Positions 14,648 to 60,886 of a stretch of DNA of 64,000 nt are shown here, piece by piece (position 1 is the first letter of the stretch; every line of letters starts with the position of its first letter). Under the pieces are notes generated by a model that was given only the letters and a program-made list of their open reading frames with translations, was not told the origin of the DNA and searched no databases. Location of the stretch: assembly GCF_040802235.1 (NCBI RefSeq), contig NC_133172.1:29283738-29347737 (forward strand), written 5' to 3'. The translations under genes and the position numbers were made by a program. This DNA is from Manis javanica (taxonomy: Eukaryota > Chordata > Mammalia > Pholidota > Manidae).

Positions 14648-14726
14648 AAGAAGAGCAGAAGACTGACATTAGACTTTTCATAATGGGCCACTATGAAAAG
14701 TCTAATGTGGGTCTTCTGCTCTTCTT
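14648..14726. repeat. 79-nt near-perfect palindrome (hairpin)
   Basis: The left arm 14648-14682 (starts AAGAAGAGCAGAAGAC) pairs with 14692-14726 (ends GTCTTCTGCTCTTCTT). Together they form a 35-bp stem with one G-G mismatch and one G-U wobble around a 9-nt loop. Either strand could fold into a pre-miRNA-sized hairpin. A palindromic MITE, as MADE1 is, is the main alternative, but no TA duplication is evident at the ends. Confidence 0.9.
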
Positions 14727-24742: not shown

Positions 24743-24913
24743 CCTGCTGGAAGGAGGGGCTCAAACCTCATACCCGCGCAATAGCATGTCTGAGCACAAA
24801 TGTTCTCACAGCTGTTGCTCCTTCACAGGATACCAGGCATACTATGTGCTATTTAAGCTGTGATTCCACATTCCTCCTCTTTATTCCTGGGCTTTTCTGT
24901 TCTTAAAACAGAT
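24743..24913 (+). repeat. 171-bp exact direct duplication, copy A
   Basis: Identical by eye to 26509-26679 (offset 1766 bp, same orientation). It starts CCTGCTGGAAGGAGGGG and ends CTTAAAACAGAT. Flanks diverge at once on both sides. The block has no A-tail and no target-site duplication that I can see, so it does not look like a retrotransposon. It could be a recent local duplication or an assembly artefact. Confidence 0.9.
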
Positions 24914-26508: not shown

Positions 26509-26679
26509 CCTGCTGGAAGGAGGGGCTCAAACCTCATACCCGCGCAATAGCATGTCTGAGCACAAATGTTCTCACAGCTGTTGCTCCTTCACAGGATACC
26601 AGGCATACTATGTGCTATTTAAGCTGTGATTCCACATTCCTCCTCTTTATTCCTGGGCTTTTCTGTTCTTAAAACAGAT
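26509..26679 (+). repeat. 171-bp exact direct duplication, copy B
   Basis: Second copy of 24743-24913. Here the upstream flank (CCTGCAG before CCTGCTGG) provides a short local microhomology of CCTGC. Confidence 0.9.
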
Positions 26680-36849: not shown

Positions 36850-37007
36850 AATGAAATGAACACTCAAACCAACCATCCAACTTAAGGACTAGGACACAAA
36901 CCTGGTGACTACCTATGTGTCACCTACCTCACCTCCTGTCCTCTTCCCAGAGGTAACCACCATCCTGAATGTTATGTTTATAGCTCACTTTAAAAAATAT
37001 TCTTTCA
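36850..37007 (-). mobile_element. Older L1 3' region, left half (insertion target)
   Basis: Plus-strand text AACCATCCAACTTAAGGACT and CCCAGAGGTAACCACCATCC is an old L1 3'UTR in reverse. It continues after the young composite at 45633. The young L1 therefore landed inside an older L1. Bases 36992-37007 (AAAAAATATTCTTTCA) are the left target-site copy. Confidence 0.65.
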
Positions 37008-38393
37008 GGATGGCGGCGTGAGTAGAGCAGTGGAAATCTCCTCCCAAAAACACATAGAGCTATGAAAATATAACAAAGAAAAATCTTCCTAAAATAGAGA
37101 CCACAGGACACAGGACAACATCCAGACCACATCCACACCTGCAAGAACCCAGCGCCTTGCGAAGGGGGTAAGATACAAGCCCCGGCCCTGCGGGACCCGA
37201 GCGCCCCTCCCCCCGGCTCCCGGCGGGTGGAAAGAAACCGGAGCGGTTTTTTTTTTTGGCGAGCGCTTTTTGGAAACCTTAAAGGGACGGGCCCCCGTTG
37301 CTAGGGAGGCAGGGTGGCGGGACCGGTGAACAGGAGCCTGGGACCAGCGCCTGAGGACAAAGAATATCCTGCGTTTCTCCCTGCAGGACCGGCGGGCGGG
37401 TGCCTGAGACCGGTGCCTGAGGACAGAGGAAATCGCGCGTTTTCCCCCTTTTTTTTTTCTCTTTTTGGCGAGCGCTTTTTGGAAGCCTTAAAGGGACAGG
37501 GACCCCAGTGCTAGGGAGGCAGGGTGGCGGGACTGGTGAGTAGGTGCCTGGGAACGGCGCCTGAGGACAAAGAATATCCCACGTTTTTCCCTGCGGGACC
37601 GGTGGGCGGGTGCCTGAGACCGGCACTTGAGGACGGAGAAAATCGCGCGTTTTTCCCCTTTTTTTTTTCTCTTTTCTGCGAGTGCTTTTGGAAGCCTAAA
37701 AGGGACAGGGACCCCGGTGCTAGGGAGGCAGGGTGGCGGGACTGGTGAGCGGGTGCCTGGGACCAGTGCCTGATGACAAAGAATATCGAGCGTTCCTTCC
37801 CTGCGGGACCGGTGGGTGGGTGCTTTTTGGAAGCCTTGAAAGGACAGGGACCCTGGTGCTAGGGAGACAGGGCAGCAGGACCAGTGAGTGGGTGCCTGGG
37901 ACCGGCACCTGAGGACAAAAAAAAGAAAAAAAAATCGCTTGTTTTTTCCTTTTTTTTTTTTTCGTTCTTTCTGTTCCCTCTCTCATTGTTGCTGTTGTTG
38001 TTTTGGTTTGGAGAGTGCTTTTTGGAAGTCTTAAAGGGGCAGGACAGGTCACTTAGACCAGAGGCAGGGAATCTGGGGATCTCTGGGCACTCTAACCCCC
38101 CGGGCAGCAGGGAGCACAGAGACCCCTTACGGAGATAAATAGCCTCCTGGCCGCTCCCCCTCCAACGGGGCTCCACCATTTTGGAGGAACAGCCCCAGCC
38201 AGGCCAAGCCCACAGCAACAGCGGAGATAAACCCCAAAGCAACTGGGCAGGAAGCAGAAGCCCTGTCTGCGCACAGCTGCCCAGCACAAGCCACTACAGG
38301 TCGCTATTCTCCCAGGAAAAGGCTACAAAGCAACAAGAAGGGAAGCTCTTCCAGCGGTCACTTGTACCAGCTCTGCAAACTATCTCTATCACC
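37008..38393 (+). promoter_or_regulatory. L1 5'UTR with ~210-bp monomers (left)
   Basis: The internal-promoter region. GC-rich units begin at 37259, 37468 and 37678 (GCGAGCGCTTTTTGG-like, 209-210 bp apart). A shortened unit follows near 37820 and then a non-repeated tether. Each unit ends in a T-rich run before the next GCGAG motif. Monomeric L1 promoters are known in rodents, where copy number scales promoter strength. That role is inferred here. The right-hand copy has one unit more. Confidence 0.8.
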
Positions 38394-39332
38394 ATGAAAA
38401 GGCAAAACTACAGGCAGACAAAGATCACAGAGACAACACCTGAGAAGGAGACAGACCTAACTAGTCCTCCTGAAAAAGAATTCAAAATAAAAATCATGAA
38501 CATGCTGACAGAGATGCAGAGAAAAATGCAAGAGCAATGGGATGAGATGCAGAGAAAAATGCAAGAGCAGTGGGATGAGATGAAGAGGAAAATGCAAGAG
38601 CAGTGGGATGAAGTCCGGAAGGAGATCACAGATGTCAGGAAGGAGATCACAGAAGTGAAACAATCCCTGGAAGGATTTATAAGCAGAATGGATAAGATGC
38701 AAGAGGCCATCGAAGGAATAGAAGCCAGAGAACAGGAACGTATAGAAGCTGACATAGAGAGAGATAAAAGGATATCCAGGAATGAAACAACACTAAGAGA
38801 AATATGTGACCAACACAAAAGGAATAACATTCGTATTATAGGGATACCAGAAGAGGAAGAAAGAGGAAAAGGGATAGAAAGTGTCTTTGAAGAAATAATT
38901 GCTGAAAACTTCCCCAAACTGGGGGAAGAAATAATCGAACAGACCATGGAATTACACAGAACCCCCAACAGAAAGGATCCAAGGAGGACAACACCAAGAC
39001 ACATAGTAATTAAAATGGCAAGGATCAAGGACAAGGAAAGAGTTTTAAAGGCAGCTAGAGAGAAAAAGGTCACCTATAAAGGAAAACCAATCAGGCTAAC
39101 ATCAGACTTCTCAACAGAAACCCTACAGGCCAGAAGAGAATGGCATGATATACTTAATGCAATGAAACAGAAGGGCCTTGAACCAAGGATACTGTATCCA
39201 GCACGACTATCATTTAAATATGATGCTGGGATTAAACAATTCCCAGACAAGCAAAAGCTGAGGGAATTTGCTTCCCACAAACCACCTCTACAGGGCATCC
39301 TACAGGACTGCTCTAGATGGGAGCATCCCTAA
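38394..39332 (+). CDS. L1 ORF1 protein (left copy), altered C-terminus
   Basis: Encodes 312 residues of the L1 RNA-binding chaperone that coats L1 RNA in the cytoplasmic RNP. I start at MKRQNYRQ because the right copy starts there; an open frame upstream is 5'UTR read-through. Order: a basic N-terminus, then a coiled coil including three 11-residue repeats (residues 41-73, MQRKMQEQWDE type) and the KEITDVRKEITEVKQ stretch. Next come an RRM-like domain around NNIRIIGIPEEEERGKG and a C-terminal domain ending near FPDKQKLREF. Compared with the right copy, one G is missing just before the stop. The last residues read DCSRWEHP instead of GLL and run slightly longer. The damage is probably mild. 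Confidence 0.85.
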   Translation: MKRQNYRQTKITETTPEKETDLTSPPEKEFKIKIMNMLTEMQRKMQEQWDEMQRKMQEQWDEMKRKMQEQWDEVRKEITDVRKEITEVKQSLEGFISRMDKMQEAIEGIEAREQERIEADIERDKRISRNETTLREICDQHKRNNIRIIGIPEEEERGKGIESVFEEIIAENFPKLGEEIIEQTMELHRTPNRKDPRRTTPRHIVIKMARIKDKERVLKAAREKKVTYKGKPIRLTSDFSTETLQARREWHDILNAMKQKGLEPRILYPARLSFKYDAGIKQFPDKQKLREFASHKPPLQGILQDCSRWEHP

Positions 39333-39511
39333 AAAGAGCACAGAACAAAACACACAACATATGAAGAATGGAGGAGGAGGAATAAGAAGGGAGAGAAGAA
39401 AAGAATCTCCAGACAGTGTATATAACAGCTCAATAAGCGAGCTAAGTTAGGCAGTAAGATACTAAAGAAGCTAACCTTGAACCTTTGGTAACCATGAATC
39501 TAAAGCCTGAA
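39333..39511 (+). other. L1 inter-ORF spacer (left)
   Basis: About 180 bp of A/G-rich spacer between ORF1 and the conserved ORF2 start. An ATG at 39494 lies in frame upstream of the shared start at 39512; in the right copy the equivalent codon is ACG, so 39512 is preferred. Confidence 0.7.
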
Positions 39512-42500
39512 ATGGCAATAAGTACATATCTCTCAATAGTCACGCTAAATGTAAATGGACTTAATGCACCAATCAAAAGACATAGAGTAATAGAATGGAT
39601 AAAAAAGCAAGACCCATCTATATGCTGCTTACAAGAAACTCACCTTAAACCCAAAGATAAGCATAGACTAAAAGTCAAGGGATGGAAAAACATATTTCAG
39701 GCAAACAACAGTGAGAAGAAAGCAGGGGTTGCAGTACTAATATCAGACAAAATAGACTTCAAAACAAAGAAAGTAACAAGAGATAAAGAAGGACACTACA
39801 TAATGATAAAGGGCTCAGTCCAATAAGAGGATATAACCATTCTAAATATATATGCACCCAATACAGGAGCACCAGCATATGTGAAGCAAATACTAACAGA
39901 ACTAAAGAGGGAAATAGACGGCAATGCATTCATTGTAGGAGACTTCAACACACCACTCACCCCAAAGGATAGATCCACCGGGCAGAAAATAAGTAAAGAC
40001 ACACAGGCACTGAACAACACACTAGAACAGATGGACCTAATAGACATGTATAGAACTCTACATCCAAAAGCAACAGGATATACATTCTTCTCAAGTGCAC
40101 ATGGAACATTCTCCAGAATAGACCACATACTAGCTCACAAAAAGAGCCTCAGTAAATTCCAAAATATTGAAATTCTACCAACCAATTTTTCAGACCACAA
40201 AGGTATGAAAGTAGAAATGAATTCTACAAAGAAAACAAAAAGGCTCACAAACACATGGAGGCTTAACAACATGCTACTAAATAATCAATGGATCAATGAA
40301 CAAATCAAAATAGAGATCAAGGAATATATAGAAACAAATGACAACAACAACACTAAGCCCCAACTTCTGTGGGATGCAGCGAAAGCAGTCTTAAGAGGAA
40401 AGTATATAGCAATCCAGGCACACTTGAAGAAGGAAGAACAATCCCAAATGAATAGTCTAACATCACAATTATTAAAACTGGAAAAAGAAGAACAAAGGAG
40501 GCCTAAAGTCAGCAGAAGGAGGGACATAATAAAGATCAGAGAAGAAATAAACAAAATTGAGAAGAATAAAACAATAGCAAAAATCAATGAAACCAAGAGC
40601 TGGTTCTTTGAGAAAATAAACAAAATAGATAAGCCTCTAGCCCAACTTATTAAGAGAAAAAGAGAGTCAACACAAATCAACATAATCAGAAATGAGAATG
40701 GAAAAATCACGACAGACTCCACAGAAATACAAAGAATTATTAAAGACTACTATGAAAACCTATATGCCAACAAGCTGGAAAACCTAGAAGAAATGGACAA
40801 CTTCCTAGAAAAATACAACCTCTCAAGATTGACCAAGGAAGAAACACAAAAGTTAAACAAACCAATTACAAGCAAAGAAATTGAAACAGTAATCAAAAAA
40901 CTACCCAAGAACAAAACCCCGGGGCTGGACGGATTTACCTCGGAATTTCATCAGACACACAGAGAAGACATAATACCCATTCTCCTTAAAGTGTTCCACA
41001 AAATAGAAGAAGAGGGAATACTCCCAAACTCATTCTATGAGGCCAACATCACCCTAATATCAAAACCAGGCAAAGACCCCACCAAAAAAGAAAATTACAG
41101 ACCAATATCCCTGATGAATGTAGATGCAAAAATACTCAATAAAATATTAGCAAACAGAATTCAACAGTATATCAAAAGGATCATACACCATGACCAAGTG
41201 GGGTTCATCCCAGGGATGCAAGGATGGTACAACATTCGAAAATCCATCAACATCATCCACCACATCAACAAAAAGAAAGACAAAAACCACATGATCATCT
41301 CCATAGATGCTGAAAAAGCATTTGACAAAATTCAACATCCATTCAGGATAAAAACTCTCAGCAAAATGGGTATAGAGGGCAAGTACCTCAACATAATAAA
41401 GGCCATATATGATAAACCCACAGCCAGCATTATACTGAACAGCGAGAAGCTGAAAGCATTTCCACTGAGATCGGGAACCAGACAGGGATGCCCACTCTCC
41501 CCACTGTTATTTAACATAGTACTGGAGGTCCTAGCCACGGCAATCAGACAAAACAAAGAAATACAAGGAATCCAGATTGGTAAAGAAGAAGTTAAACTGT
41601 CACTATTTGCAGATGATATGATACTGTACATAAAAAACCCTAAAGTCTCCACTCCAAAACTACTAGAACTGATATCGGAATACAGCAAAGTTGCAGGATA
41701 CAAAATTAACACACAGAAATCTGTAGCTTTCCTATACACTAACAATGAATCAATAGAAAGAGAAATCAGGAAAACAATTCCATTCACCATTGCATCAAAA
41801 AGAATAAAATACCTAGGAATAAACCTAACCAAAGAAGTGAAAGACTTATACTCTGAAAACTACAAGTCACTCTTAAGAGAAATTAAAGGGGACACTAATA
41901 AATGGGAACTCATCCCATGCTCATGGCTAGGAAGAATTAATATCATCAAAATGGCCATCCTGCCCAAAGCAATATACAGATTTGATGCAATCCCTCTCAA
42001 ATTACCAGCAACATTCTTCAATGAATTGGAACAAATAATTCAAAAATTCAAATGGAAACACCAAAGACCCCGAATAGCCAAAGCAATCCTGAAAAAGAAG
42101 AATAAAGTAGGGGGGATCTCACTCCCCAACTTCAAGCTCTACTACAAAGCCATAGTAATCAAGACAATTTGGTACTGGCACAAGAACAGGGCCACAGACC
42201 AGTGGAACAGATTAGAGACCCCAGAAATTAACCCAAACATATATGGTCAATTAATATTTGATAAAGGAGCCATGGACATACAATGGCAAAATGACAGTCT
42301 CTTCAACAGATGGTGCTGGCAAAACTGCACAGTTACATGTAGGAGAATGAAACTGGACCATTGTCTAACCCCATATACAAAGGTAAACTCAAAATGGATC
42401 AAAGACCTGAATGTAAGTCATGAAACCATTAAACTCTTGGAAAAAATCATAGGCAAAAACCTCTTAGACATAAACATGAGTGATCTCTTCTTGAACATAT

Positions 42501-43327
42501 CTCCCCGGGCAAGGAAAACAACAGCAAAAATGAGCAAGTGGGACTACATTAAGCTGAAAAGCTTCTGTACAGCGAAAGACACCATCAATAGAACAAAAAG
42601 GAACCCTACAGTATGAGAGAATATATTTGAAAATGACAGATCCGATAAAGGCTTGACGTCCAGAATATATAAAGAGCTCACACGCCTCAACAAACAAAAA
42701 ACAAATAACCCAATTAAAAAATGGGCAGAGGAACTGAACAGACAATTCTCCAAAAAAGAAATACAGATGGCCAAGAGACACATGAAAAGATGCTCCACAT
42801 CGCTAATTATCAGAGAAATGCAAATTAAAACTACAATGAGGTATCACCTCACACCAGTAAGGATAGCTGCCATCCAAAAGACAAACAACAACAAATGTTG
42901 GCGAGGCTGTGGAGAAAGGGGAACCCTCCTACACTGCTGGTGGGAATGTAAATTAGTTCAACCACCGTGGAAAGCAGTATGGAGGTGCATCAAAATGCTC
43001 AAAACAGACCTACCATTTGACCCAGGAATTCCACTCCTAGGAATTTACCCTAAGAACGCAGCAATCAAGTTTGAGAAAGACAGATGCACTCCTATGTTTA
43101 TCGCAGCACTATTTACAATAGCCAAGAATTGGAAGCAACCTAAATGTCCATCGGTAGATGAATGGATAAAGAAGATGTGGTACATATACACAATGGAATA
43201 CTACTCAGCCATAAGAAGTGGAAAAATCCAACCATTTGCAGCAACATGGATGGAGCTGGAGAGTATTATGCTCAGTGAAATAAGCCAAGTGGAGCAAGAG
43301 AAATACCAAATGATTTCACTCATCTGA
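39512..43327 (+). pseudogene. L1 ORF2 (endonuclease/reverse transcriptase), two nonsense mutations
   Basis: A full-length frame of 1271 codons with two stops. Residue numbers count from MAISTYLS. The apurinic-like endonuclease domain shows LNVNGLN (Asn15) and CLQETHL (Glu42), then VGDFNTPL and FSDHKGMK. The RT has [25 protein letters not shown] and the FADD catalytic motif at residues 699-702 (41606-41617). The C-terminal zinc knuckle [18 protein letters not shown] (C-x3-C-x7-H-x4-C) starts near residue 1129. Codon 105 is TAA (39824-39826) where the right copy has CAA; codon 1035 is TGA (42614-42616) where it has TGG. The first stop lies within the endonuclease domain, so no active protein is expected. 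Confidence 0.9.
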
Positions 43328-43682
43328 GGAGTATAGGAACAAAGGAAAAACTGAAGGAACAAAACAGCAGCAGAATTACAGAACCCAAAAATGGACTAAC
43401 AGGTACCAAAGGGAAAGGAACTGGGGAGGATGGGTGGGCAGGGAGGGATAAGGGGGGGAAGAAGAAGGGGGGTATTAAGATTAGCATGCATGGGGGGAGG
43501 GAGAAAGGGGAGGGTGGGCTGCACAACATAGAGAGGACAAGTAGTGACTCTACAACATTTTGCAAAGCTGATGGACAGTAACTGTAATGTGGTTGTTAGG
43601 GGGGACCTGATATAGGGGAGAGCATAGTCAACATAGTATTCTTCATGTAAGTGTAGATTAAAAATTAAAAAAAAAAAAAAAA
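43328..43682 (+). other. L1 3'UTR with G-rich tract and A-tract (left)
   Basis: Contains a strongly G-rich stretch at 43411-43520 with repeated GGG-GGGGGGG runs, typical of the G-quadruplex-prone polypurine tract of L1 3'UTRs. It ends with GATTAAAAATTAAAA and an A-run to 43682. There is no canonical AATAAA immediately before the A-run (ATTAAA is present near 43658). A weak signal fits the read-through inferred downstream. Confidence 0.8.
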
Positions 43683-43880
43683 GAAAGAAAGAAAGCGGGA
43701 TTACTCCTTAACAGGATAAAACTATTGGTAAATCAAAGATAAACGCATGCTTTAAATATCCTTAATGTTGATCACTTAAAGGGTGTCAGATGATCAGCTA
43801 TGGAGGTACTCTTTTCTGATAATATTCCTTTCTCTTAATTAAAAAAAAAAAAAATAGCAGTTACTGTGTGCTGACCTCCA

Positions 43881-44156
43881 ATGAGTTCTGCACAGTGGTA
43901 TAGAGGGCATGTCAAAGTGTGGGCAAAGGGTCTGTTTGTTTCTACGCAGAAGATCAAGGCCTAGCTTGGATACCCAGAAAATGAACTAAGATACGATATG
44001 AGGAGGAGCTTCCGGCATCAGCACTCTCTGGAGGACTTGTGCCAGGGGATGATCATCAAAAAGCCTCCACAGGGATCCGGACGATGCTGCGGTTGTGGCT
44101 GCATCCAGCCCACCATCTCCTGGACTTGCCATAAGAATGAGGAGGGAGATGTCTAG
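43881..44156 (+). pseudogene. Retroviral integrase-tail-like remnant (left)
   Basis: Frame reading QWYRGHVKVWAKGLFV, then a PENELRYDMRRS stretch. The W-Y-x-G-x-V-x-V-W-x-K-G pattern resembles the small SH3-like domain at the end of some retroviral integrases. The following SLEDLCQGMIIKK and CCGCGC may be the overlapping start of env. In this copy a TAG interrupts the frame near 43962, where the right copy has TTG. Assignment rests on motif impression only. Confidence 0.4.
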
Positions 44157-44382
44157 GCTGACATGTGCATACAGTGAGACAACGAATTTGACCGGATCTG
44201 TACTGTTGGAACTCAACCAGGAGTTGGGAGGGGTGCAAGTTGTAGCACTCCAAAATCTCATGACTATAGACTATCTATGGTTAAAAGAACATATGGGATG
44301 TGAACAGATCCCAGAAATGGGCTGCTTTAATTTGTCTGATGGTTCAAGTACAGTTGGACAATATCCATCATATCATAGATAA
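44095..44382 (+). pseudogene. Retroviral env TM-like remnant (left)
   Basis: A 95-codon frame with LNQELGGVQVVALQNLMTID, then YLWLKEHMGC and a second Cys eight residues on (MGCF). The QN-x(3)-D-x(4)-L spacing followed by a Cys pair resembles the heptad/immunosuppressive-type and C-x-C region of retroviral transmembrane subunits. A hydrophobic run after it is in another frame (about 44390-44460, WFSWLHWRWMVIIDLLCL), consistent with a frameshifted membrane anchor. Heavily truncated; not a functional envelope. Confidence 0.5.
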
Positions 44383-44539
44383 ATTTTCACAAATGCCTAG
44401 GGTGCCTAAATGGTTTTCTTGGCTTCACTGGAGATGGATGGTAATTATAGATTTGCTTTGTTTATGTCACCGTATTCCTATTACGTTAATATGTGTGTGC
44501 AAATTAGTTAGTAGTTTAAAACCTATACATACTTAAGGT

Positions 44540-45173
44540 ACTATATAAGAAGATATGTCAAAGAAATAATCAATCCTCCCATGTTTCCTTCATATGCTAC
44601 ATCTATAGCTTTTCTTCTTCCTTTCTAATTACAACCCTTAAATAGAATTCGTGCCTCATATCGAATTTACCGAGTATCATAATTCCTCCAGGTGGTAAAG
44701 ATACCTCGAGACAAGTGCTGGGCATAGAAGCCACAAGGCATAAATCTGCAAAGAAGTAAAAAGCTAACCTTTGCAAACAATATGGCTTCTCTCTCACTTA
44801 CCAACTTTACATTTCCCTGTATGGCCCCGGAAGATGACTGGTTAGCCAGAGACGGGTAAGATTCCTCAAGGGAGGAACAACCTAAGACAGGCACAGTCAC
44901 AGGGGGGCCATCAGGTGAGAATTTGGGGATCAGCAGAGGTGAGCCTCAGAACCTCACCCCCCCTGCTTTGAGAGAAATCTTCTGCATCCGTGGATGTCTT
45001 GCTGCCCTTGTCTAGCCTGGATTAATACTTAGTCCATAGGCACACACCTGATCATCTGATCATCTACATTTGCCTTCTTACAGCACTAAACTATGTTTTC
45101 TACCTTTATCTTGCATCTACCTACCACTTCAGCATTTTATTAAAAATAAAAATAATAATAATAATAGGAGAAA
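44540..45173 (+). other. Degenerate retroviral 3' sequence before the LTR (left)
   Basis: No frame is recognisable. The stretch ends with an (AAT)n run (about 45145-45165) and the purine tract AGGAGAAA immediately before the LTR TG, the expected position of a polypurine tract. Confidence 0.5.
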
Positions 45174-45496
45174 TGTGGGATCAACATATAAATCAAGTAC
45201 AAAAATCAAACGAATATTCATATTTGACCTGATTGTTTATAGGTCATATTGCATGATCAAAACCGAAAGTTTCTGTGATGAATGCCCTTGTACTGTTCAC
45301 CATGTAAGAATTTATTCACTATGTAAGAATTCATTCACCATGTAAGAACTTGTTCGTTATGCTTCAGAAGATTGGAGACTGACGAGAATTAGGCTTGAGA
45401 TGGATTAATGATTGTACATTGAGCGTTGACCCCCCTATACTGAATTTTATTGTTGTTAACAACCATTTGATCAATAAATATGAGAGATGCCCTCTC
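45174..45496 (+). mobile_element. Partial LTR (U3-R) with ~19-bp repeats (left)
   Basis: Starts TGTGGGATCAAC right after a polypurine tract. It contains three to four tandem ~19-bp units (TTCACCATGTAAGAA-like) at about 45297-45361. It ends 18 nt after AATAAA at GCCCTCTC, directly followed by A-rich tail. It appears to stop at the R/poly(A) site, so U5 is absent, as expected if the segment was copied from a polyadenylated RNA. Confidence 0.7.
45473..45496 (+). terminator. Captured LTR polyadenylation signal and cleavage site (left)
   Basis: AATAAA at 45473-45478, cleavage inferred at about 45496 where the A-rich tail starts. The mirror-image signal occurs at 52187-52192 in the right copy with the same end point. 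Confidence 0.8.
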
Positions 45497-45617
45497 AAAA
45501 AAAAATAAAAATAAAAATAAAAATAAATAAAAGTTAAAGCCAAAACTTAAAAAAAAAAAAAAAAAAGAAAAGAAAGTGGTGGCGAAAATATTATAATGAA
45601 GATTAAACTTAAAAAAA
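45497..45617 (+). other. Three-part A-rich tail (left)
   Basis: (A4-9T)n A-tail to about 45532; then GTTAAAGCCAAAACTT and about 18 A; then a ~45-bp unique piece (contains GTGGTGGCGAAAATATTATA) ending AAACTT and about 14 A. Each unique piece followed by A looks like a short serial 3' transduction, or local tail rearrangement. The right copy has only the first A-rich part. Confidence 0.7.
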
Positions 45618-45632
45618 AAAAAAATTCTTTCA

Positions 45633-52095: not shown

Positions 52096-52168
52096 AACTC
52101 CTAACTTTTTTTTTTTGTTGTTGTTGTTTTATTTTTTTATTTTTATTTTTATTTTTTTATTTTTTTTT

Positions 52169-52491
52169 GAGAGGGCATCTCTCATATTTATTGATCAAAT
52201 GGTTGTTAACAACAATAAAATTCAGTATAGGGGGGTCAATGCTCAATGTACAATCATTAATCCATCTCAAGCCTAATTCTCGTCAGTCTCCAATCTTCTG
52301 AAGCATAACGAACAAGTTCTTACATGGTGAACGAATTCTTACAGAGTGAATAAATTCTTACATGGTGAACAGTACAAGGGCATTCACCACAGAAACTTTC
52401 GGTTTTGATCATGCAATATGACCTATAAACCATCAGGTCAAATATGAATATTCATTTGATTTTTGTACTTGATTTATATGTTGATCCCACA
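52169..52491 (-). mobile_element. Partial LTR (U3-R) with captured poly(A) signal (right)
   Basis: Minus-strand TG starts at 52491 after a reversed AGGAGAAA tract. AATAAA lies at 52192-52187 and the end at 52169. The ~19-bp repeats lie at about 52310-52375. Confidence 0.7.
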
Positions 52492-53282
52492 TTTCTCCTA
52501 TTATTATTATTATTTTTATTTTTAATAAAATGCTGAAGTGGTAGGTAGATGCAAGATAAAGGTAGAAAACATAGTTTAGTGCTGTAAGAAGGCAAATATA
52601 GATGATCAGATGATCAGGTGTGTGCCTATGGACTAAGTATTAATCCAGGCTAGACAAGGGCAGCAAGACATCCACGGATGCAGAAGATTTCTCTCAAAGC
52701 AGGGGGGGTGAGGTTCTGAGCCTCACCTCTGTTGATCCCCAAATTCTCACCTGATGGCCCCCCTGCGACTGTGCCTGTCTTAGGTTGTTCCTCCCTTGAG
52801 GAATCTTACCCGTCTCTGGCTAACCAGTCATCTTCCGGGGCCATACAGGGAAATGTAAAGTTGGTAAGTGAGAGAGAAGCCATATTGTTTGCAAAGGTTA
52901 GCTTTTTACTTCTTTGCAGATTTATGCCCTGTGGCTTCTATGCCCAGCACTTGTCTCGAGGTATCTTTACCACCTGGAGGAATTATGATACTCGGTAAAT
53001 TCGATATGAGGCACGAATTCTATTTAAGGTTTGTAATTAGGAAGGAAGAAGAAAAGCTATAGATGTAGCATATGAAGGAAACTTGGGAGGATTGATTATT
53101 TCTTTGACATATCTTCTTGTATAGTACCTTAAGTATGTATAGGTTTTAAACTACTAACTAATTTACACACACATATTAACATAATAGGAATACGGTGACA
53201 TAAACAAAGCAAATCTATAATTACCAGCCATCTCCAGTGAAGCCAAGAAAACCATTTAGGCACCCTAGGCATTTGTGAAAAT

Positions 53283-53570
53283 TTATCTATGATATGATGG
53301 ATATTGTCCAACTGTACTTGAACCATCAGACAAATTAAAGCAGCCCATTTCTGGGATCTGTTCACATCCCATATGTTCTTTTAACCATAGATAGTCTATA
53401 GTCATGAGATTTTGGGGTGCTACAACTTGCACCCCTCCCAACTCCTGATTGAGTTCCAACAGTACAGATCCAGTCAAATTCGTTGTCTCACTGTATGCAC
53501 ATGCCAGCCTAGACATCTCCCTCCTCCTTCTTATGGCAAGTCCAGGAGACGGTGGGCTGGATGCAGCCAC
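53283..53570 (-). pseudogene. Retroviral env TM-like remnant (right)
   Basis: Same 95-codon frame as 44095-44382. Differences include Pro for Leu before QNLMTID and Arg for Met/Arg changes near the start. The truncation and downstream frameshift are shared, so the decay predates the split of the two copies. Confidence 0.5.
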
Positions 53571-53784
53571 AACCGCAGCATCGTCCGGATCCCTGTGGAG
53601 GCTTTTTGATGATCATCCCCCGGCACGAGTCCTCCAGAGAGTGCTGATGCCGGAAGCTCCTCCTCATATCGTATCTTAGTTCATTTTCTGGGTATCCAAG
53701 CAAGGCCTTGATCTTCTGCGTAGAAACAAACAGACCCTTTGCCCACACTTTGACATGCCCTCTATACCACTGTGCAGAACTCAT
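53509..53784 (-). pseudogene. Retroviral integrase-tail-like remnant (right)
   Basis: 91-codon frame with QWYRGHVKVWAKGLFV, open here because TTG replaces the TAG of the left copy. It has no initiation context of its own and is only the end of a longer lost gene. Confidence 0.4.
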
Positions 53785-53987
53785 TGGAGGTCAGCACACA
53801 GTAACTGCTTTTTTTTTTTTTTTTTAATTAAGAGAAAGGAATATTATCAGAAAAGAGTACCTCCATAGCTGATCATCTGACACCCTTTAAGTGATCAACA
53901 TTAAGGATATTTAAAGCATGCGTTGATCTTTGATTTACCAATAGTTTTATCCTGTTAAGGAGTAATCCCCCTTTTCTTTCTTTCTTT

Positions 53988-54340
53988 CTTTTTTTTTTAA
54001 ATTTTTAATCTACACTTACCTGAAGAATACTATGTTTACTATGCTCTCCCCTATATCAGGTCCCCCCTAACAACCATATTACGGTTACTGTCCATCAGCT
54101 TAGCAAAATGTGGTAGAGTCACTACTTGTCCTCTCTGTGTTGTGCAGCCCACCCTCCCCTTTCTCCCTCCCCCCCATGCATGCTAATCTTAATACCCCCC
54201 TTCTTCTTCCCCCCCCTTATCCCTCCCTGCCCACCCATCCTCCCCAGTTCCTTTCCCTTTGGTACCTGTTAGTCCATTTTTGGGTTCTGTAATTCTGCTG
54301 CTGTTTTGTTCCTTCAGTTTTTCCTTTGTTCCTATACTCC
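53988..54340 (-). other. L1 3'UTR and A-tract (right)
   Basis: Reverse of the G-rich 3'UTR described for the left copy. The polypurine tract appears as C-rich runs at about 54146-54254. Confidence 0.8.
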
Positions 54341-57300
54341 TCAGATGAGTGAAATCATTTGGTATTTCTCTTTCTCCGCTTGGCTTATTTCACTGAGCAT
54401 AATACTCTCCAGCTCCATCCATGTTGCTGCAAATGGTTGGATTTTTCCACTTCTTATGGCTGAGTAGTATTCCATTGTGTATATGTACCACATCTTCTTT
54501 ATCCATTCATCTACAGATGGACATTTAGGTTGCTTCCAATTCTTGGCTATTGTAAATAGTGCTGCGATAAACATAGGAGTGCATCTGTCTTTCTCAAACT
54601 TGATTGCTGCGTTCTTAGGGTAAATTCCTAGGAGTGGAATTCCTGGGTCAAATGGTAGGTCTGTTTTGAGCATTTTGATGCACCTCCGTACTGCTTTCCA
54701 CAATGGTTGAACTAATTTACATTCCCACCAGCAGTGTAGGAGGGTTCCCCTTTCTCCACAGCCTCGCCAACATTTGTTGTTGTTTGTCTTTTGGATGGCA
54801 GCTATCCTTACTGGTGTGAGGTGATACCTCATTGTAGTTTTAATTTGCATTTCTCTGATAATTAGCGATGTGGAGCATCTTTTCATGTGTCTCTTGGCCA
54901 TCTGTATTTCTTTTTTGGAGAACTGTCTGTTCAGTTCCTCTGCCCATTTTTTAATTGGGTTATTTGTTTTTTGTTTGTTGAGGTGTGTGAGCTCTTTATA
55001 TATTCTGGACGTCAAGCCTTTATCAGATCTGTCATTTTCAAATATATTCTCCCATACTGTAGGGTTCCTTTTTGTTCTATTGATGGTGTCTTTCGCTGTA
55101 CAGAAGCTTTTCAGCTTAATGTAGTCCCACTTGCTCATTTTTGCTGTTGTTTTCCTTGCCCGGGGAGATATGTTCAAGAAGAGATCACTCATGTTTATAT
55201 CTAAGAGGTTTTTGCCTATGTTTTTTTCCAAGAGTTTAATGGTTTCGTGACTTACATTCAGGTCTTTGATCCATTTTGAGTTTACCTTTGTATATGGGGT
55301 TAGACAATGGTCCAGCTTCATTCTCCTACATGTAGCTGTCCAGTTTTGCCAGCACCATCTGTTGAAGAGACTGTCATTTTGCCATTGTATGTCCATGGCT
55401 CCTTTATCAAATATTAATTGACCATATATGTTTGGGTTAATTTCTGGGATCTCTAATCTGTTCCACTGGTCTGTGGCCCTGTTCTTGTGCCAGTACCAAA
55501 TTGTCTTGATTACTATGGCTTTGTAGTAGAGCTTGAAGTTGGGGAGTGAGATCCCCCCTACTTTATTCTTCTTTTTCAGGATTGCTTTGGCTATTCGGGG
55601 TCTTTGGTGTTTCCATTTGAATTTTTGAATTATTTGTTCCAATTCATTGAAGAATGTTGCTGGTAATTTGAGAGCGATTGCATCAAATTTGTATATTGCT
55701 TTCGGCAGGATGGCCATTTTGACGATATTAATTCTTCCTAGCCATGAGCATGGGATGAGTTTCCATTTATTAGTGTCCCCTTTAATTTCTCTTAAGAGTG
55801 ACTTGTAGTTTTCAGAGTATAAGTCTTTCACTTCCTTGGTTAGGTTTATTCCTAGGTATTTTATTCTTTTTGATGCAATGGTGAATGGAATTGTTTTCCT
55901 GATTTCTCTTTCTATTGATTCGTTGTTAGTGTATAGGAAAGCTACAGATTTCTGTGTGTTGATTTTGTATCCTGCAACTTTGCTGTATTCCGATATCAGT
56001 TCTAGTAGTTTTGGAGTGGAGTCTTTAGGGTTTTTTATGTACAGTATCATATCATCTGCAAATAGTGACAGTTTAACTTCTTCTTTACCAATCTGGATTC
56101 CTTGTATTTCTTTGTTTTGTCTGATTGCCGTGGCTAGGACCTCCAGTACTATGTTAAATAACAGTGGGGAGAGTGGGCATCCCTGTCTGGTTCCCGATCT
56201 CAGTGGAAATGCTTTCAGCTTCCGCTGTTCAGTATAATGCTGGCTGTGGGTTTATCATATATGGCCTTTATTATGTTGAGGTACTTGCCCTCTATTCCCA
56301 TTTTGCTGAGAGTTTTTATCATGAATGGATGTTGAATTTTGTCAAATGCTTTTTCAGCATCTATGGAGATGATCATGTGGTTTTTGTCTTTCTTTTTGTT
56401 GATGTGGTGGATGATGTTGATGGATTTTCGAATGTTGTACCATCCTTGCATCCCTGGGATGAACCCCACTTGGTCATGGTGTATGATCCTTTTGATATAC
56501 TGTTGAATTCTGTTTGCTAATATTTTATTGAGTATTTTTGCATCTACATTCATCAGGGATATTGGTCTGTAATTTTCTTTTTTGGTGGGGTCTTTTCCTG
56601 GTTTTGGTATTAGGGTGATGTTGGCTTCATAGAATGAGTTTGGGAGTATTCCCTCTTCTTCTATTTTGTGGAACACTTTAAGGAGAATGGGTATTATGTC
56701 TTCTCTGTGTGTCTGATAAAATTCCGAGGTAAATCCGTCCGGCCCCGGGGTTTTGTTCTTGGGTAGTTTTTTGATTACTGTTTCAATTTCTTTGCTTGTA
56801 ATTGGTTTGTTTAACTTTTGTGTTTCTTCCTTGGTCAGTCTTGGGAGGTTGTATTTTTCTAGGAAGTTGTCCATTTCTTCTAGGTTTTCCAGCTTGTTGG
56901 CATATAGGTTTTCATAGTAGTCTTTAATAATTCTTTGTATTTCTGTGGAGTCTGTCGTGATTTTTCCATTCTCATTTCTGATTATGTTGATTTGTGTTGA
57001 CTCTCTTTTTCTCTTAATAAGTTGGGCTAGAGGCTTATCTATTTTGTTTATTTTCTCAAAGAACCAGCTCTTGGTTTCGTTGATTTTTGCTATTGTTTTA
57101 TTCTTCTCAATTTTGTTTATTTCTTCTCTGATCTTTATTATGTCCCTCCTTCTGCTGACTTTAGGCCTCATTTGTTCTTCTTTTTCCAGTTTTAATAGTT
57201 GTGATGTTAGACTATTCATTTGGGATTGTTCTTCCTTCTTCAAGTGTGCCTGGATTGCTATATACTTTCCTCTTAAGACTGCTTTCGCTGCATCCCACAG

Positions 57301-58155
57301 AAGTTGGGGCTTAGTGTTGTTGTTGTCATTTGTTTCTATATATTCCTTGATCTCTATTTTGATTTGTTCATTGATCCATTGATTATTTAGTAGCATGTTG
57401 TTAAGCCTCCATGTGTTTGTGAGCCTTTTTGTTTTCTTTGTAGAATTTATTTCTACTTTCATACCTTTGTGGTCTGAAAAATTGGTTGGTAGAATTTCAA
57501 TATTTTGGAATTTACTGAGGCTCTTTTTGTGAGCTAGTATGTGGTCTATTCTGGAGAATGTTCCATGTGCACTTGAGAAGAATGTATATCCTGTTGCTTT
57601 TGGATGTAAAGTTCTATAGATGTCTATTAGGTCCATCTGTTCTAGTGTGTTGTTCAGTGCCTGTGTGTCTTTACTTATTTTCTGCCCGGTGGATCTATCC
57701 TTTGGGGTGAGTGGTGTGTTGAAGTCTCCTACAATGAATGCATTGCAGTCTATTTCCCTCTTTAGTTCTGTTAGTATTTGCTTCACATATGCTGGTGCTC
57801 CTGTATTGGGTGCATATATATTTAGAATGGTTATATCCTCTTGTTGGACTAAGCCCTTTATCATTATGTAGTGGCCTTCTTTATCTCTTGTTACTTTCTT
57901 TGTTTTGAAGTCTATTTTGTCTGATATTAGTACTGCAACCCCTGCTTTCTTCTCACTGTTGTTTGCCTGAAATATGTTTTTCCATCCCTTGACTTTTAGT
58001 CTATGCTTATCTTTGGGTTTAAGGTGAGTTTCTTGTAAGCAGCATATAGATGGGTCTTGCTTTTTTATCCATTCTATTACTCTATGTCTTTTGATTGGTG
58101 CATTAAGTCCATTTACATTTAGGGTGACTATTGAGAGATATGTACTTATTGCCAT
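54341..58155 (-). pseudogene. L1 ORF2, single 1-nt frameshift (right)
   Basis: 3815 nt from the shared MAISTYLS start (58155) to the TGA, one base short of 1272 codons. The endonuclease motifs ([29 protein letters not shown]) and early RT ([11 protein letters not shown]) are open to about residue 645. There a base missing near 56221-56223, relative to the left copy, shifts the frame and meets a stop at 56215. The downstream part is open to the end: FADD motif, RT thumb and the C-x3-C-x7-H-x4-C knuckle. Both left-copy stop positions are sense here (CAA, TGG). The deletion could be real or a consensus error. Confidence 0.9.
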
Positions 58156-58350
58156 TGCAGGCTTTAGATTCGTGGTTACCAAAGGTTCAAGGTTAGCTTC
58201 TTTAGTATCTTACTGCCTAACTTAGCTCGCTTATTGAGCTGTTATATACACTGTCTGGAGATTCTTTTCTTCTCTCCCTTCTTATTCCTCCTCCTCCATT
58301 CTTCATATGTTGTGTGTTTTGTTCTGTGCTCTTTTTAGGGGTGCTCCCAT
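58156..58350 (-). other. L1 inter-ORF spacer (right)
   Basis: A/G-rich on the minus strand. The upstream ATG seen in the left spacer is ACG here. Confidence 0.7.
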
Positions 58351-59241
58351 CTAGAGCAGTCCCTGTAGGATGCCCTGTAGAGGTGGTTTGTGGGAAGCAA
58401 ATTCCCTCAGCTTTTGCTTGTCTGGGAATTGTTTGATCCCAGCATCATATTTAAATGATAGTCGTGCTGGATACAGTATCCTTGTTTCAAGGCCCTTCTG
58501 TTTCATTGCATTAAGTATATCATGCCATTCTCTTCTGGTCTGTAGGGTTTCTGTTGAGAAGTCTGATGTTAGCCTGATTGGTTTTCCTTTATAGGTGACC
58601 TTTTTCTCTCTAGCTGCCTTTAAAACTCTTTCCTTGTCCTTGATCCTTGCCATTTTAATTATTATGTGTCTTGGTGTTGTCCTCCTTGGATCCTTTCTGT
58701 TGGGGGTTCTGTATAATTCCATGGTCTGTTCGATTATTTCCTCCCCCAGTTTGGGGAAGTTTTCAGCAATTATTTCTTCAAAGACACTTTCTATCCCTTT
58801 TCCTCTTTCTTCCTCTTCTGGTATCCCTATAATACGAATGTTTTTCCTTTTGTATTGGTCACATATTTCTCTTAGTGTTGTTTCATTCCTGGAGATCCTT
58901 TTATCTCTCTCTATGTCAGCTTCTATACGTTCCTGTTCTCTGGCTTCTATTCCTTCAATGGCCTCTTGCATCTTATCCATTCTGCTTATAAATCCTTCCA
59001 GGGATTGTTTCACTTCTGTGATCTCTTTCCTGACATCTGTGATCTCCTTCCGGACTTCATCCCACTGCTCTTGCATTTTTCTCTGCATTTCATCCCATTG
59101 CTCTTGCATTTTTTTCTGCATCTCTGTCAGCATGTTCATGATTTTTATTTTGAATTCTTTTTCAGGAAGACTAGTTAGGTCTGTCTCCTTCTCAGGTGTT
59201 GTCTCTGTGATCTTTGTCTGCCTGTAGTTTTGCCTTTTCAT
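58351..59241 (-). CDS. L1 ORF1 protein (right copy), intact
   Basis: 296 residues, start MKRQNYRQ, stop after LQGLL. Nucleic-acid chaperone of the L1 RNP. A coiled coil with two 11-residue repeats (residues 41-62, MQKKMQEQWDE and MQRKMQEQWDE) is followed by RKEITDVRKEITEVKQ. The RRM-like domain has KNIRIIGIPEEEERG and the C-terminal domain TYKGKPIRLTSDFSTE. One 11-residue repeat fewer than the left copy. Open throughout, so the protein could be made if the 5'UTR promoter is active. No evidence of expression can be seen from DNA. Confidence 0.9.
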   Translation of the reverse strand: MKRQNYRQTKITETTPEKETDLTSLPEKEFKIKIMNMLTEMQKKMQEQWDEMQRKMQEQWDEVRKEITDVRKEITEVKQSLEGFISRMDKMQEAIEGIEAREQERIEADIERDKRISRNETTLREICDQYKRKNIRIIGIPEEEERGKGIESVFEEIIAENFPKLGEEIIEQTMELYRTPNRKDPRRTTPRHIIIKMARIKDKERVLKAAREKKVTYKGKPIRLTSDFSTETLQTRREWHDILNAMKQKGLETRILYPARLSFKYDAGIKQFPDKQKLREFASHKPPLQGILQGLL

Positions 59242-60872
59242 GGTGATAGAGATAGTTTGCAGAGCTGGTACAAGTGACCGCTGGAAGAGCTTCCCTTCTT
59301 GTTGGTTTGTAGCCTTTTCCTGGGAGAATAGCGACCTCTAGTGGCTTGTGCTGGGCAGCTGTGCGTAGACAGGGCTTCTGCTTCCTGCCCAGTTGCTTTG
59401 GGGTTTATCTCCGCTGTTGCTGTGGGCTTGGCCTGGCTGGGGCTGTTCCTCCAAAATGGTGGAGCCCCGTTGGAGGGGGAGCAGCCAGGAGACTATTTAT
59501 CTCCATAAGGGGCCTCTGTGCTCCCTGCTGCCCAGGGGGTTAGAGTGCCCAGAGATCCCCAGATTCCCTGCTTCTGGTCTAAGTGACCTGTCCTGCCCCT
59601 TTAAGATTTCCAAAAAGCACTCTCCAAACCAAAACAACAGCAGCAACAATGAGAGAGGGAACAGAAACAAAGAGAAAAAAAAAAGGAAAAAAAAGGAAAA
59701 AACAAGCGATTTTTTTTTTTTTTTTTTTGTCCTCAGGTGCCGGTCCCAGGCACCCGCTCACTGGTCCTGATGCCCTGTCTCCCTAGCACCAGGGTCCCTG
59801 TCCTTTCAAGGCTTCCAAAAAGCACCCACCCACCGGTCCCGCAGGGAAGGAACGCTCAATATTCTTTGTCCTCAGGCACTGGTCCCACGCACCCGCTCAC
59901 CATTCCCGCCGCCCTGCCTCCCTAGCACCGGGGTCCCTGTCCCTTCAAGGCTTCCAAAAAGCACTCGGCAAAAAGAGAGAAAAAAAAGGGGAAAAACGCG
60001 CGATTTCTTCCGTCCTCAGGTGCTGGTCTCAGGCACCCACCCACCGGTCCCACAGGGAAAAATGCGGGATATTCTTTGTCCTCAGGTGCCGGTCCCAGGC
60101 ACCCGCTCACCAGTCCCGCCGCCCTGCCTCCCTAGCACCGGGGTCCCTGTCCCTTTTAGGCTTCCAAAAAGCACTCGCAGAAAAGAGAAAAAAAAAAGGG
60201 GAAAAACGCGCGATTTCCTCTGTCCTCAAGTGCCGGTCTCAGGCACCCGCCCACCGGTCCCGCAGGGAAAAACGGGGGATATTCTTTGTCCTCAGGCGCC
60301 GGTCCCAGCCACCCGCTCACCAGTCCCGCCACCGTGCCTCCCTAGCACTGGGGTCCCCGTCCCTTCAAGGCTTCCAAAAAGCGCTCGCCAAAAAGAGAAA
60401 AAAAAAAAAAGGGGAAAAACGCGCGACCTCCTCCGTCCTCAGGCACCGGTCTCAGGCACCCGCCCCCAGGTCTCGCAGGGAGAAACGCGGGATATTCTTT
60501 GTCCTCCGGCGCCGTTCCCAGGCACCTCCTCACCGGTCCCGCCACCCTGCCTCCCCAGCAACGGGGGCCCGTCCCTCTAAGGCTTCCAAAAAGCGCTCGC
60601 CAAAAAAAAAAAAAAAAAAAACCGCTCCGGTTTCTCTCCACCCGCCGGGAGCCAGGGGGAGGGGCGCTTGGGTCCCACCGGGCTGGGGCTTGTATCTTAC
60701 CCCCTTCACAAGGCGCTGGGTTCTTGCAGGTGTGGATGTGGTCTGGATGTTGTCCTGTGTCCTGTGGTCTCTATTTTAGGAAGATTTTTCTTTGTTATAT
60801 TTTCATAGCTCTATGTGTTTTTGGGAGGAGATTTCCACTGCTCTACTCACGCCGCCATCTTGGCTCCGCCCC
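59242..60872 (-). promoter_or_regulatory. L1 5'UTR with ~210-bp monomers (right)
   Basis: On the minus strand, GCGAGCGC/GCGAGTGC-type unit starts lie at about 60600, 60388, 60178 and 59968 (spacing 212, 210, 210 bp), with a short unit near 59820. That is four units plus a partial. The 5' terminus at 60872 is intact and begins with the GGGGCGGAGCC block and a GATGGCGGC YY1-like site. It could act as an internal promoter; strength cannot be judged here. Confidence 0.85.
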
Positions 60873-60886
60873 AACTCCTAACTTTT

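Follow-up and report, generated by a model that had tools for sequence, protein, structure and literature searches.

An L1 lineage of Manis javanica that appears to have taken its 3' end from an endogenous retrovirus

How does an autonomous L1 element come to end in the long terminal repeat (LTR) of a retrovirus, and can such a composite persist as a lineage? The question is raised by a stretch of 64,000 nucleotides from Manis javanica (contig NC_133172.1, positions 29,283,738 to 29,347,737, forward strand; hereafter the window). It contains two independent full-length L1 insertions, copy A (37008-45622, plus strand) and copy B (52110-60872, minus strand), each joined at its 3' end to the same 1.8-kb piece of an endogenous retrovirus (ERV). 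An earlier annotation made from the letters of the window (the sequence-only reading) had proposed an L1 lineage terminated by a retroviral polyadenylation site, and this proposal is followed up here across the host genome. The explanation that we favour, with a probability of roughly 0.87, is that an L1 lying in sense within a provirus would have been read through into the downstream LTR and polyadenylated there, and that the resulting 3' transduction founded a lasting lineage.

The two insertions share one layout, in which the L1 3' untranslated region (UTR) is followed by a short A-rich tract, the retroviral piece and an A-rich tail. Within the piece, the C-terminus of integrase, an alpharetrovirus-like transmembrane subunit (TM) of env and the U3-R portion of an LTR succeed one another. 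Copies A and B lie inverted to each other with 6.5 kb between them and align at 97.1% over 8,335 bp, ORF2 diverging by 1.2%, the retroviral body by 1.7% and the LTR part by 1.9%. The final non-A base of copy A, at 45496, lies 18 nt after an AATAAA hexamer. A target-site duplication (TSD) encloses each whole composite, ATTCTTTCA for copy A and AAAAGTTAGGAGTT for copy B; the flanks of the two are unrelated, and their TSDs, 5' starts and 3' extensions all differ. Because the TSDs enclose the composites and the flanks are unrelated, A and B are two separate insertions, each made as one unit. The sequence-only reading was therefore right that both L1s pass their own A-tract into a common segment, that this segment stops behind an AATAAA and is followed by an A-rich tail, and that duplications bracket the full composites. 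Its description of the segment as LTR-like holds for the end, which is LTR U3-R, but the segment is not LTR alone, since it starts in the integrase C-terminus of pol and includes env TM.

The composite moves as a single unit. Among seven further young copies (L003-L009), whose expected 5' ends were fetched, an L1 start together with a duplication around the whole composite was found in six, while the 5' end of L009 was not found among these fetched ends. The duplication of L007 is short (7 nt) and was assigned by eye, the best string of the script lying elsewhere, and in L006 eight extra bases stand between the duplication and the L1 start. Flanks and duplications differ in these six as well, so that copies A, B and the six others do not share the identical flanks of one duplicated block. 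Two of the young copies, L003 and L008, carry behind the LTR the same two extra 3' segments as copy A, which marks these segments as serial 3' transductions rather than noise; L004 has a different 3' extension of ~140 nt. From the whole-unit duplications and the repeated 3' extensions it follows that the extended form moves, as the earlier annotation had supposed, and gets extended again. The distances among the L1 parts and among the tails correlate (r = 0.83, a value reached in 0 of 2000 permutations) in 31 sequences, namely the 30 of the 38 loci L002-L039 in which both parts are nearly complete and the window copy, which is L002 and so was counted twice. Shared variable sites in ORF2 fall on the three codon positions as 22/11/44 (p = 1.7e-5; 31 of the 37 loci L003-L039), a constraint expected if the tailed lineage itself replicates.

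The abundance of the composite was assessed in the host genome assembly (2,559,957,944 bases in 63 contigs). An exact 20-mer from the L1 3'UTR occurs 12,366 times genome-wide and one from the first tail segment 10,646 times, counts beside which the earlier suggestion of a possible successful subfamily was an understatement. With the 1.8-kb segment as query, 4,074 first-look candidates were obtained; the 40 that were scored have 98-100% identity, 38 of them over the full 1-1814. A query with the TM protein gave 31,317 candidates, of which 150 were scored. Among 30 TM-query loci (L010-L039), 25 run from the L1 3' end, complete or partial, through the first tail segment into the body, and two more (L024, L032) have the L1 end and the body without the first tail segment.

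The converse sample was drawn by the L1 3'UTR 20-mer on contig C1, so as not to favour tailed copies. Forty sites were picked from 100 listed places: the first 20, and 20 of the 34 listed between 5.37 and 9.43 Mb, the latter including all 13 that lack the exact tail 20-mer at the expected distance. Excluded were 33 places that lie in a tandem array; of the remaining 67, all but 8 were read or paired by position. The retroviral tail is present at 40/40 sites. Its first segment is found in 33 (in L132 as 64 bp, with no body in the stretch) and is absent, with the body present, in seven (L071, L078, L083, L090, L118, L123, L136). No element ending at its own L1 3'UTR poly(A) was met at these 40 sites, all of which run into the retroviral tail. 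Counted from the other side, 34 of 42 exact tail 20-mer sites in the first 9.43 Mb of C1 have the exact L1 3'UTR 20-mer 330-430 nt upstream, the other eight being unread. The segment is thus found mainly with L1, not apart from it, and we infer that tailed L1s are the main recent L1 line of this genome. Neither of the two findings that the sequence-only reading had named as fatal to it, a segment mostly free of L1 or composites with identical flanks, was obtained. By its ORFs and its marks of transposition the unit is still counted as an L1; its end is new.

Two observations on the same contig concern local copy number. The array at C1 5.02-5.24 Mb carries the L1 3'UTR 20-mer 33 times, mostly every 5.64 kb and on one strand, and is thus a tandem array with an L1 end; mammals are known to carry large arrays of L1 (PMC5848613). 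In C1:0.7-2.6 Mb, several of the first 20 sites are 0.1-0.3% apart (for example L072, L076 and L087), which suggests segmental duplications.

Where does the tail come from? Its first part aligns to a native provirus of the host genome (L070) at 74% over 372 positions and at 79% over the first 140. The reading frame of this provirus matches retroviral integrases in PDB (best 7usf, E 7e-14); the integrase core PF00665 lies just upstream of the integrase C-terminal frame, which itself gives only a weak Pfam match below the cut-off. The env fragment matches the TM of avian sarcoma-leukosis virus (4jpr, E 2.3e-7; also 5h9c), and the final 323 bp are LTR U3-R. Scans of viral contigs and of prokaryote genomes with tail motifs gave 0 matches each, and a protein-to-DNA search of the viral contigs yielded a single weak stretch of similarity (L001, 52% over residues 6-31). 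In the env surface region of the native provirus (L070:858-1343) a weak immunoglobulin-domain match was seen (PF13927, E 0.0023, under the curated cut-off).

Native LTRs were sought with a pattern requiring non-A bases behind the LTR end, which by design picks copies without a plain A-run after the motif. With up to two mismatches it gave 504 and 454 genome matches, from which 30 loci (L040-L069) were cut out. Nine are native-type LTRs, 72-77% identical to the captured LTR where more than R aligned, R itself being at ~95%. Eight of the nine start with TGTGGG, and all nine run on beyond the point at which the composites stop, from R into U5. In four (L054, L058, L060, L064) U5 is followed by a primer site resembling TGGCGCCCGAACAGGGAC, each time with changes, which we take to be a tRNA-Lys site. 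The other 21 loci hold a composite-type LTR at 81-96%, with A-rich or other sequence behind it. Unlike the complete LTR of a provirus or a solo LTR, the captured tail has no U5 and stops at R. One native-type locus (L063, on contig C5) is a solo LTR with U5 that lies inside L1 coding sequence; it comes from a relative of the donor and is 77% identical to the captured LTR.

These data suggest a sequence of events. An L1 without an AATAAA of its own would have inserted in sense into the integrase region of a provirus lacking part of env. Transcription from the L1 promoter would then run past the weak L1 end, and the RNA would be cleaved and polyadenylated at the R/U5 site of the proviral 3' LTR. 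L1 target-primed reverse transcription would place this longer RNA at a new locus, and the product, an autonomous L1 extended at its 3' end by 1.8 kb of retroviral sequence, would found a lineage that still holds young copies. Several features are consistent with such a course. AATAAA is absent from the L1 3'UTR of copy A, which has ATTAAA only; near the ends of tail-less older L1s it is lacking in L044 and L063, occurs in the A-rich tail only in the second L1 of L009, and occurs once in L052. An A-run directly follows the end of R in the nine of nine copies checked, all young and all read as genomic ends (A, B and L003-L009); in the RNA, the LTR signal is the presumed 3' end site. The site corresponding to the junction in the sole native provirus read, TTGTTAAAACAAAAAGGGGG, contains TT/AAAA, the nick motif of the L1 endonuclease, and an origin by insertion of an L1 into a provirus is the course to which this site points.

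The principal competitor of this reading is template switching, in which the L1 reverse transcriptase would start on a polyadenylated retroviral RNA and jump to the poly(A) of an L1 RNA, the same lineage following afterwards. In the oldest-looking junctions (L069, L067) a short A-run stands between the L1 end and integrase, and either partner could have supplied it; template switching is also named as the origin of some transductions in the accessible text of PMC12593883. Such a jump needs no endonuclease-like site, yet the junction sits on TT/AAAA in the native integrase, and we consider this origin rather unlikely. It could also be imagined that the tail is an abundant independent retroviral repeat beside which L1s merely landed, for the genome does hold native proviral and solo LTRs of related families. 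The same order at 40/40 sites, the duplications that enclose both parts and the co-varying distances refute chance neighbourhood, to which we give practically no weight. An inverted segmental duplication within the window would account for the orientation, the 6.5-kb spacing and the ~97% likeness of A and B, and was rejected with equal firmness, because their flanks are unrelated and their TSDs differ; the 5' starts and 3' extensions differ too.

Read-through from an L1 into a proviral LTR has points to answer as well, and the following weigh against it. Other AATAAA hexamers, one at 45145 and more within the (AAAAT)n run, mean that polyadenylation may not rely on the LTR site alone, and copies A, L003, L004 and L008 end past that site. 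The native LTRs that were read, at 72-77% identity to the captured LTR outside R, represent relatives rather than the donor. The tail lacks about 900 bp of env that the sole native provirus read contains (L070 and L052 positions); the donor must therefore have been already deleted or a spliced form. Three of the 30 TM-query loci (L025, L030, L038) show no L1 in the stretch, being either 5' truncated or L1-free. Finally, all 40 sites lie within the first 9 Mb of a single contig, and at 0.6% they form 30 clusters.

How long has the composite existed? Over a 1.2-kb stretch across the junction (non-CpG, Jukes-Cantor), members of the youngest group are 0.8% apart and the deepest composite split is 14%. 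Substitution rates of 1.5-3.0 x 10^-9 per site and year place these at 1.3-2.6 million years (My) and 24-48 My, respectively, and it looks like an L1 with a borrowed retroviral end has been spreading for tens of millions of years. Four older L1s that turned up by chance (the second L1 of L009, L044, L052 and L063; 75-86% alike), which are not a random sample and of which L052 does not end in a clean A-run, are all tail-less. This would fit a capture within this L1 line.

A sublineage has carried the fusion further. Three of the 40 sites (L071, L078, L083), 1-3% apart, and L024 have identical break points of a deletion that removed the last part of the L1 3'UTR, the L1 A-tract and the first tail segment, so that only the retroviral side remains for these copies to end on; it is likely that they inserted separately. 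That the LTR has served for ~24-48 My as a lasting functional substitute for the terminator of an autonomous mammalian L1, with the fused sublineage dropping the L1 end and newer sublineages adding extensions, is a broader claim that we regard as somewhat better than even.

Might the family owe its success to protein instead, the captured TM fragment having been retained as a third L1 protein? The TM frame is open across the matched 135-136 codons in 17 of 24 older-type copies with a TM match, a count that includes near-identical mates and some copies with in-frame 3-nt deletions (L150 gave no match); the TM stretches come from 38 of the 40 sites. Gaps per 100 substitutions number 1.8 in TM against 4.7-6.4 in the flanking tail and 12.5 in the L1 3'UTR, and the median ratio of nonsynonymous to synonymous rates (dN/dS) is 0.48 against 0.69-0.78 in the wrong frames (ten sequences). 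Shared variable sites in TM, however, are spread evenly over codon positions (21/22/26, p = 0.74), like those of a non-coding tail control (30/29/32; 36 of the 37 loci L003-L039) and unlike those of ORF2. This test used 32 of 40 sequences (38 sites and the two window copies), seven cluster mates and one without a match having been dropped; 18 of the 32 are older-type. The youngest group is moreover frameshifted in TM, and TM stands without a surface subunit. On the codon-position test a conserved third ORF was rejected, although dN/dS and gap rates leaned otherwise, and we hold it improbable. Because codon positions are as even as in the non-coding tail and the youngest group is frameshifted, the TM protein is under no detectable constraint. 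The gain, if any, resides in the RNA end.

The features of the two composites are collected in Table 1. ORF2 has endonuclease and reverse transcriptase domains (PF03372, PF00078) and is broken in both copies, by two stops in A and a frameshift in B; that of copy A, its pieces searched separately, matches the human L1 ORF2p structure 8uw3 in PDB with 1373 bits. The ORF1 domain search was made on copy A. The coiled coil of ORF1 contains a 33-bp repeat, with about three units in copy A (38511-38611) and two in copy B (59056-59121). The 5'UTR of copy B is likewise built of ~210-bp monomers. Rfam and tRNA scans gave no matches. Elsewhere in the window, 24743-24913 and 26509-26679 form a 171-bp direct repeat of 100% identity, 1766 bp apart, and 14648-14726 is a 79-bp palindrome (91%) resembling a remnant of a small inverted-repeat DNA transposon.

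Table 1. Coordinates of the two L1-retrovirus composites in the window
Feature	Position	Strand	Basis or remark
Copy A 5' TSD, ATTCTTTCA	36999..37007	+	Direct reading; same as 45623-45631
Copy A L1 5'UTR, ~210-bp tandem monomers	37008..38393	+	Repeat period 210 at 37253-37823
Copy A L1 ORF1, open, 312 aa	38394..39332	+	Pfam PF02994 E 3.9e-25, PF17490 E 3e-19
Copy A L1 ORF2, in-frame stops at 39824-39826 and 42614-42616	39496..43327	+	RVT_1, Exo_endo_phos
Copy A L1 3'UTR, G-rich polypurine stretch	43328..43663	+	ATTAAA only (43657, 43664)
Copy A A-rich tract, former L1 3' end	43664..43696	+	Tail-less older L1s (4) stop correspondingly
Captured pol integrase C-terminus	43697..44061	+	Secondary A-tract 43842-43855; aligns to native provirus L070
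Captured env TM fragment, no surface subunit	44062..44530	+	Frameshifted; longest open piece 44053-44382
Captured retroviral 3' non-coding part, to purine-rich tract before LTR	44531..45173	+	Native L052 matches part
Captured LTR U3-R	45174..45496	+	AATAAA 45473-45478; end is presumed R/U5 cleavage point
A-rich (AAAAT)n tail with more AATAAA hexamers	45497..45532	+	Copy B similar
Copy A two serial 3' transductions, 45533-45548 and 45567-45610, each with an A-run behind it	45533..45622	+	Also in L003, L008
Copy A 3' TSD	45623..45631	+	
Copy B L1, 5' end at 60872, begins GGGGCGGAGCCAAGATGG	~54002..60872	-	Frameshift in ORF1 and in ORF2
Copy B captured retroviral segment, A-tract edge to end of R	52169..53984	-	98% to copy A in each of three parts
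Copy B A-rich tail	52106..52168	-	
Copy B 3' TSD, AAAAGTTAGGAGTT	52096..52109	-	Partner 60873-60886

Transduction of 3' flank by L1 is a familiar process, in most cases a by-product by which small families can be recognised. In the lineage described here such an event appears to have provided the lasting 3' end of an L1 family that is both large and long-lived. As set out in the accessible text of PMC12593883, downstream flank is carried along when the signal of the element itself is bypassed, and the composites resemble this in their carried flank, their serial extensions and the non-L1 segment inside whole-unit duplications. They differ in scale, for transduction families mark a small recent family, whereas here the tail is at 40/40 sites and spans ~15% divergence. 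The chimeric human L1s of hg38, according to the part of PMC13174262 consulted, are joined on the L1 5' side with small RNAs, Alu or mRNA; they likewise illustrate that L1 RNA and other RNAs can found new composites, but the joins described in that part are 5' ones, with no retroviral 3' capture seen among them. The source of the tail is ERV-K-like (Lys primer) ERVs with an alpharetrovirus-like TM, of which the final part alone, without U5, is here present and mobilised by L1. An autonomous L1 with a retroviral 3' end was not met in the open-licence literature at the level of titles and abstract openings. Separate masking libraries for LINE and LTR sequences could tag thousands of L1 tails in this genome as ERV.

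The closest parallel is SVA, an element mobilised by L1 proteins (PMC7353768, accessible text), whose SINE-R part derives from the 3' end of HERV-K10 env and the 3' LTR (PMC12593883, accessible text). The tailed L1s work alike, with a poly(A)-ending 3' end made from the 3' end of an ERV env and its 3' LTR, and are not a member of that family. SVA is non-autonomous and hominid-specific, with hexamer, Alu-like and variable number tandem repeat (VNTR) parts; the present unit is a full L1 with ORF1, ORF2 and a 5'UTR of 210-bp monomers, and its capture extends back into integrase. Together with SVA it would make two independent cases in which L1-mobilised elements have taken up an ERV env/LTR end, and two cases would make it testable whether LTR ends help L1 RNAs. 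If the reading given here is true, the tail would be the convergent counterpart of the SVA SINE-R in an autonomous element, and would suggest that RNAs mobilised by L1 gain a real advantage from an LTR end, be it in 3' end formation, export or escape from silencing.

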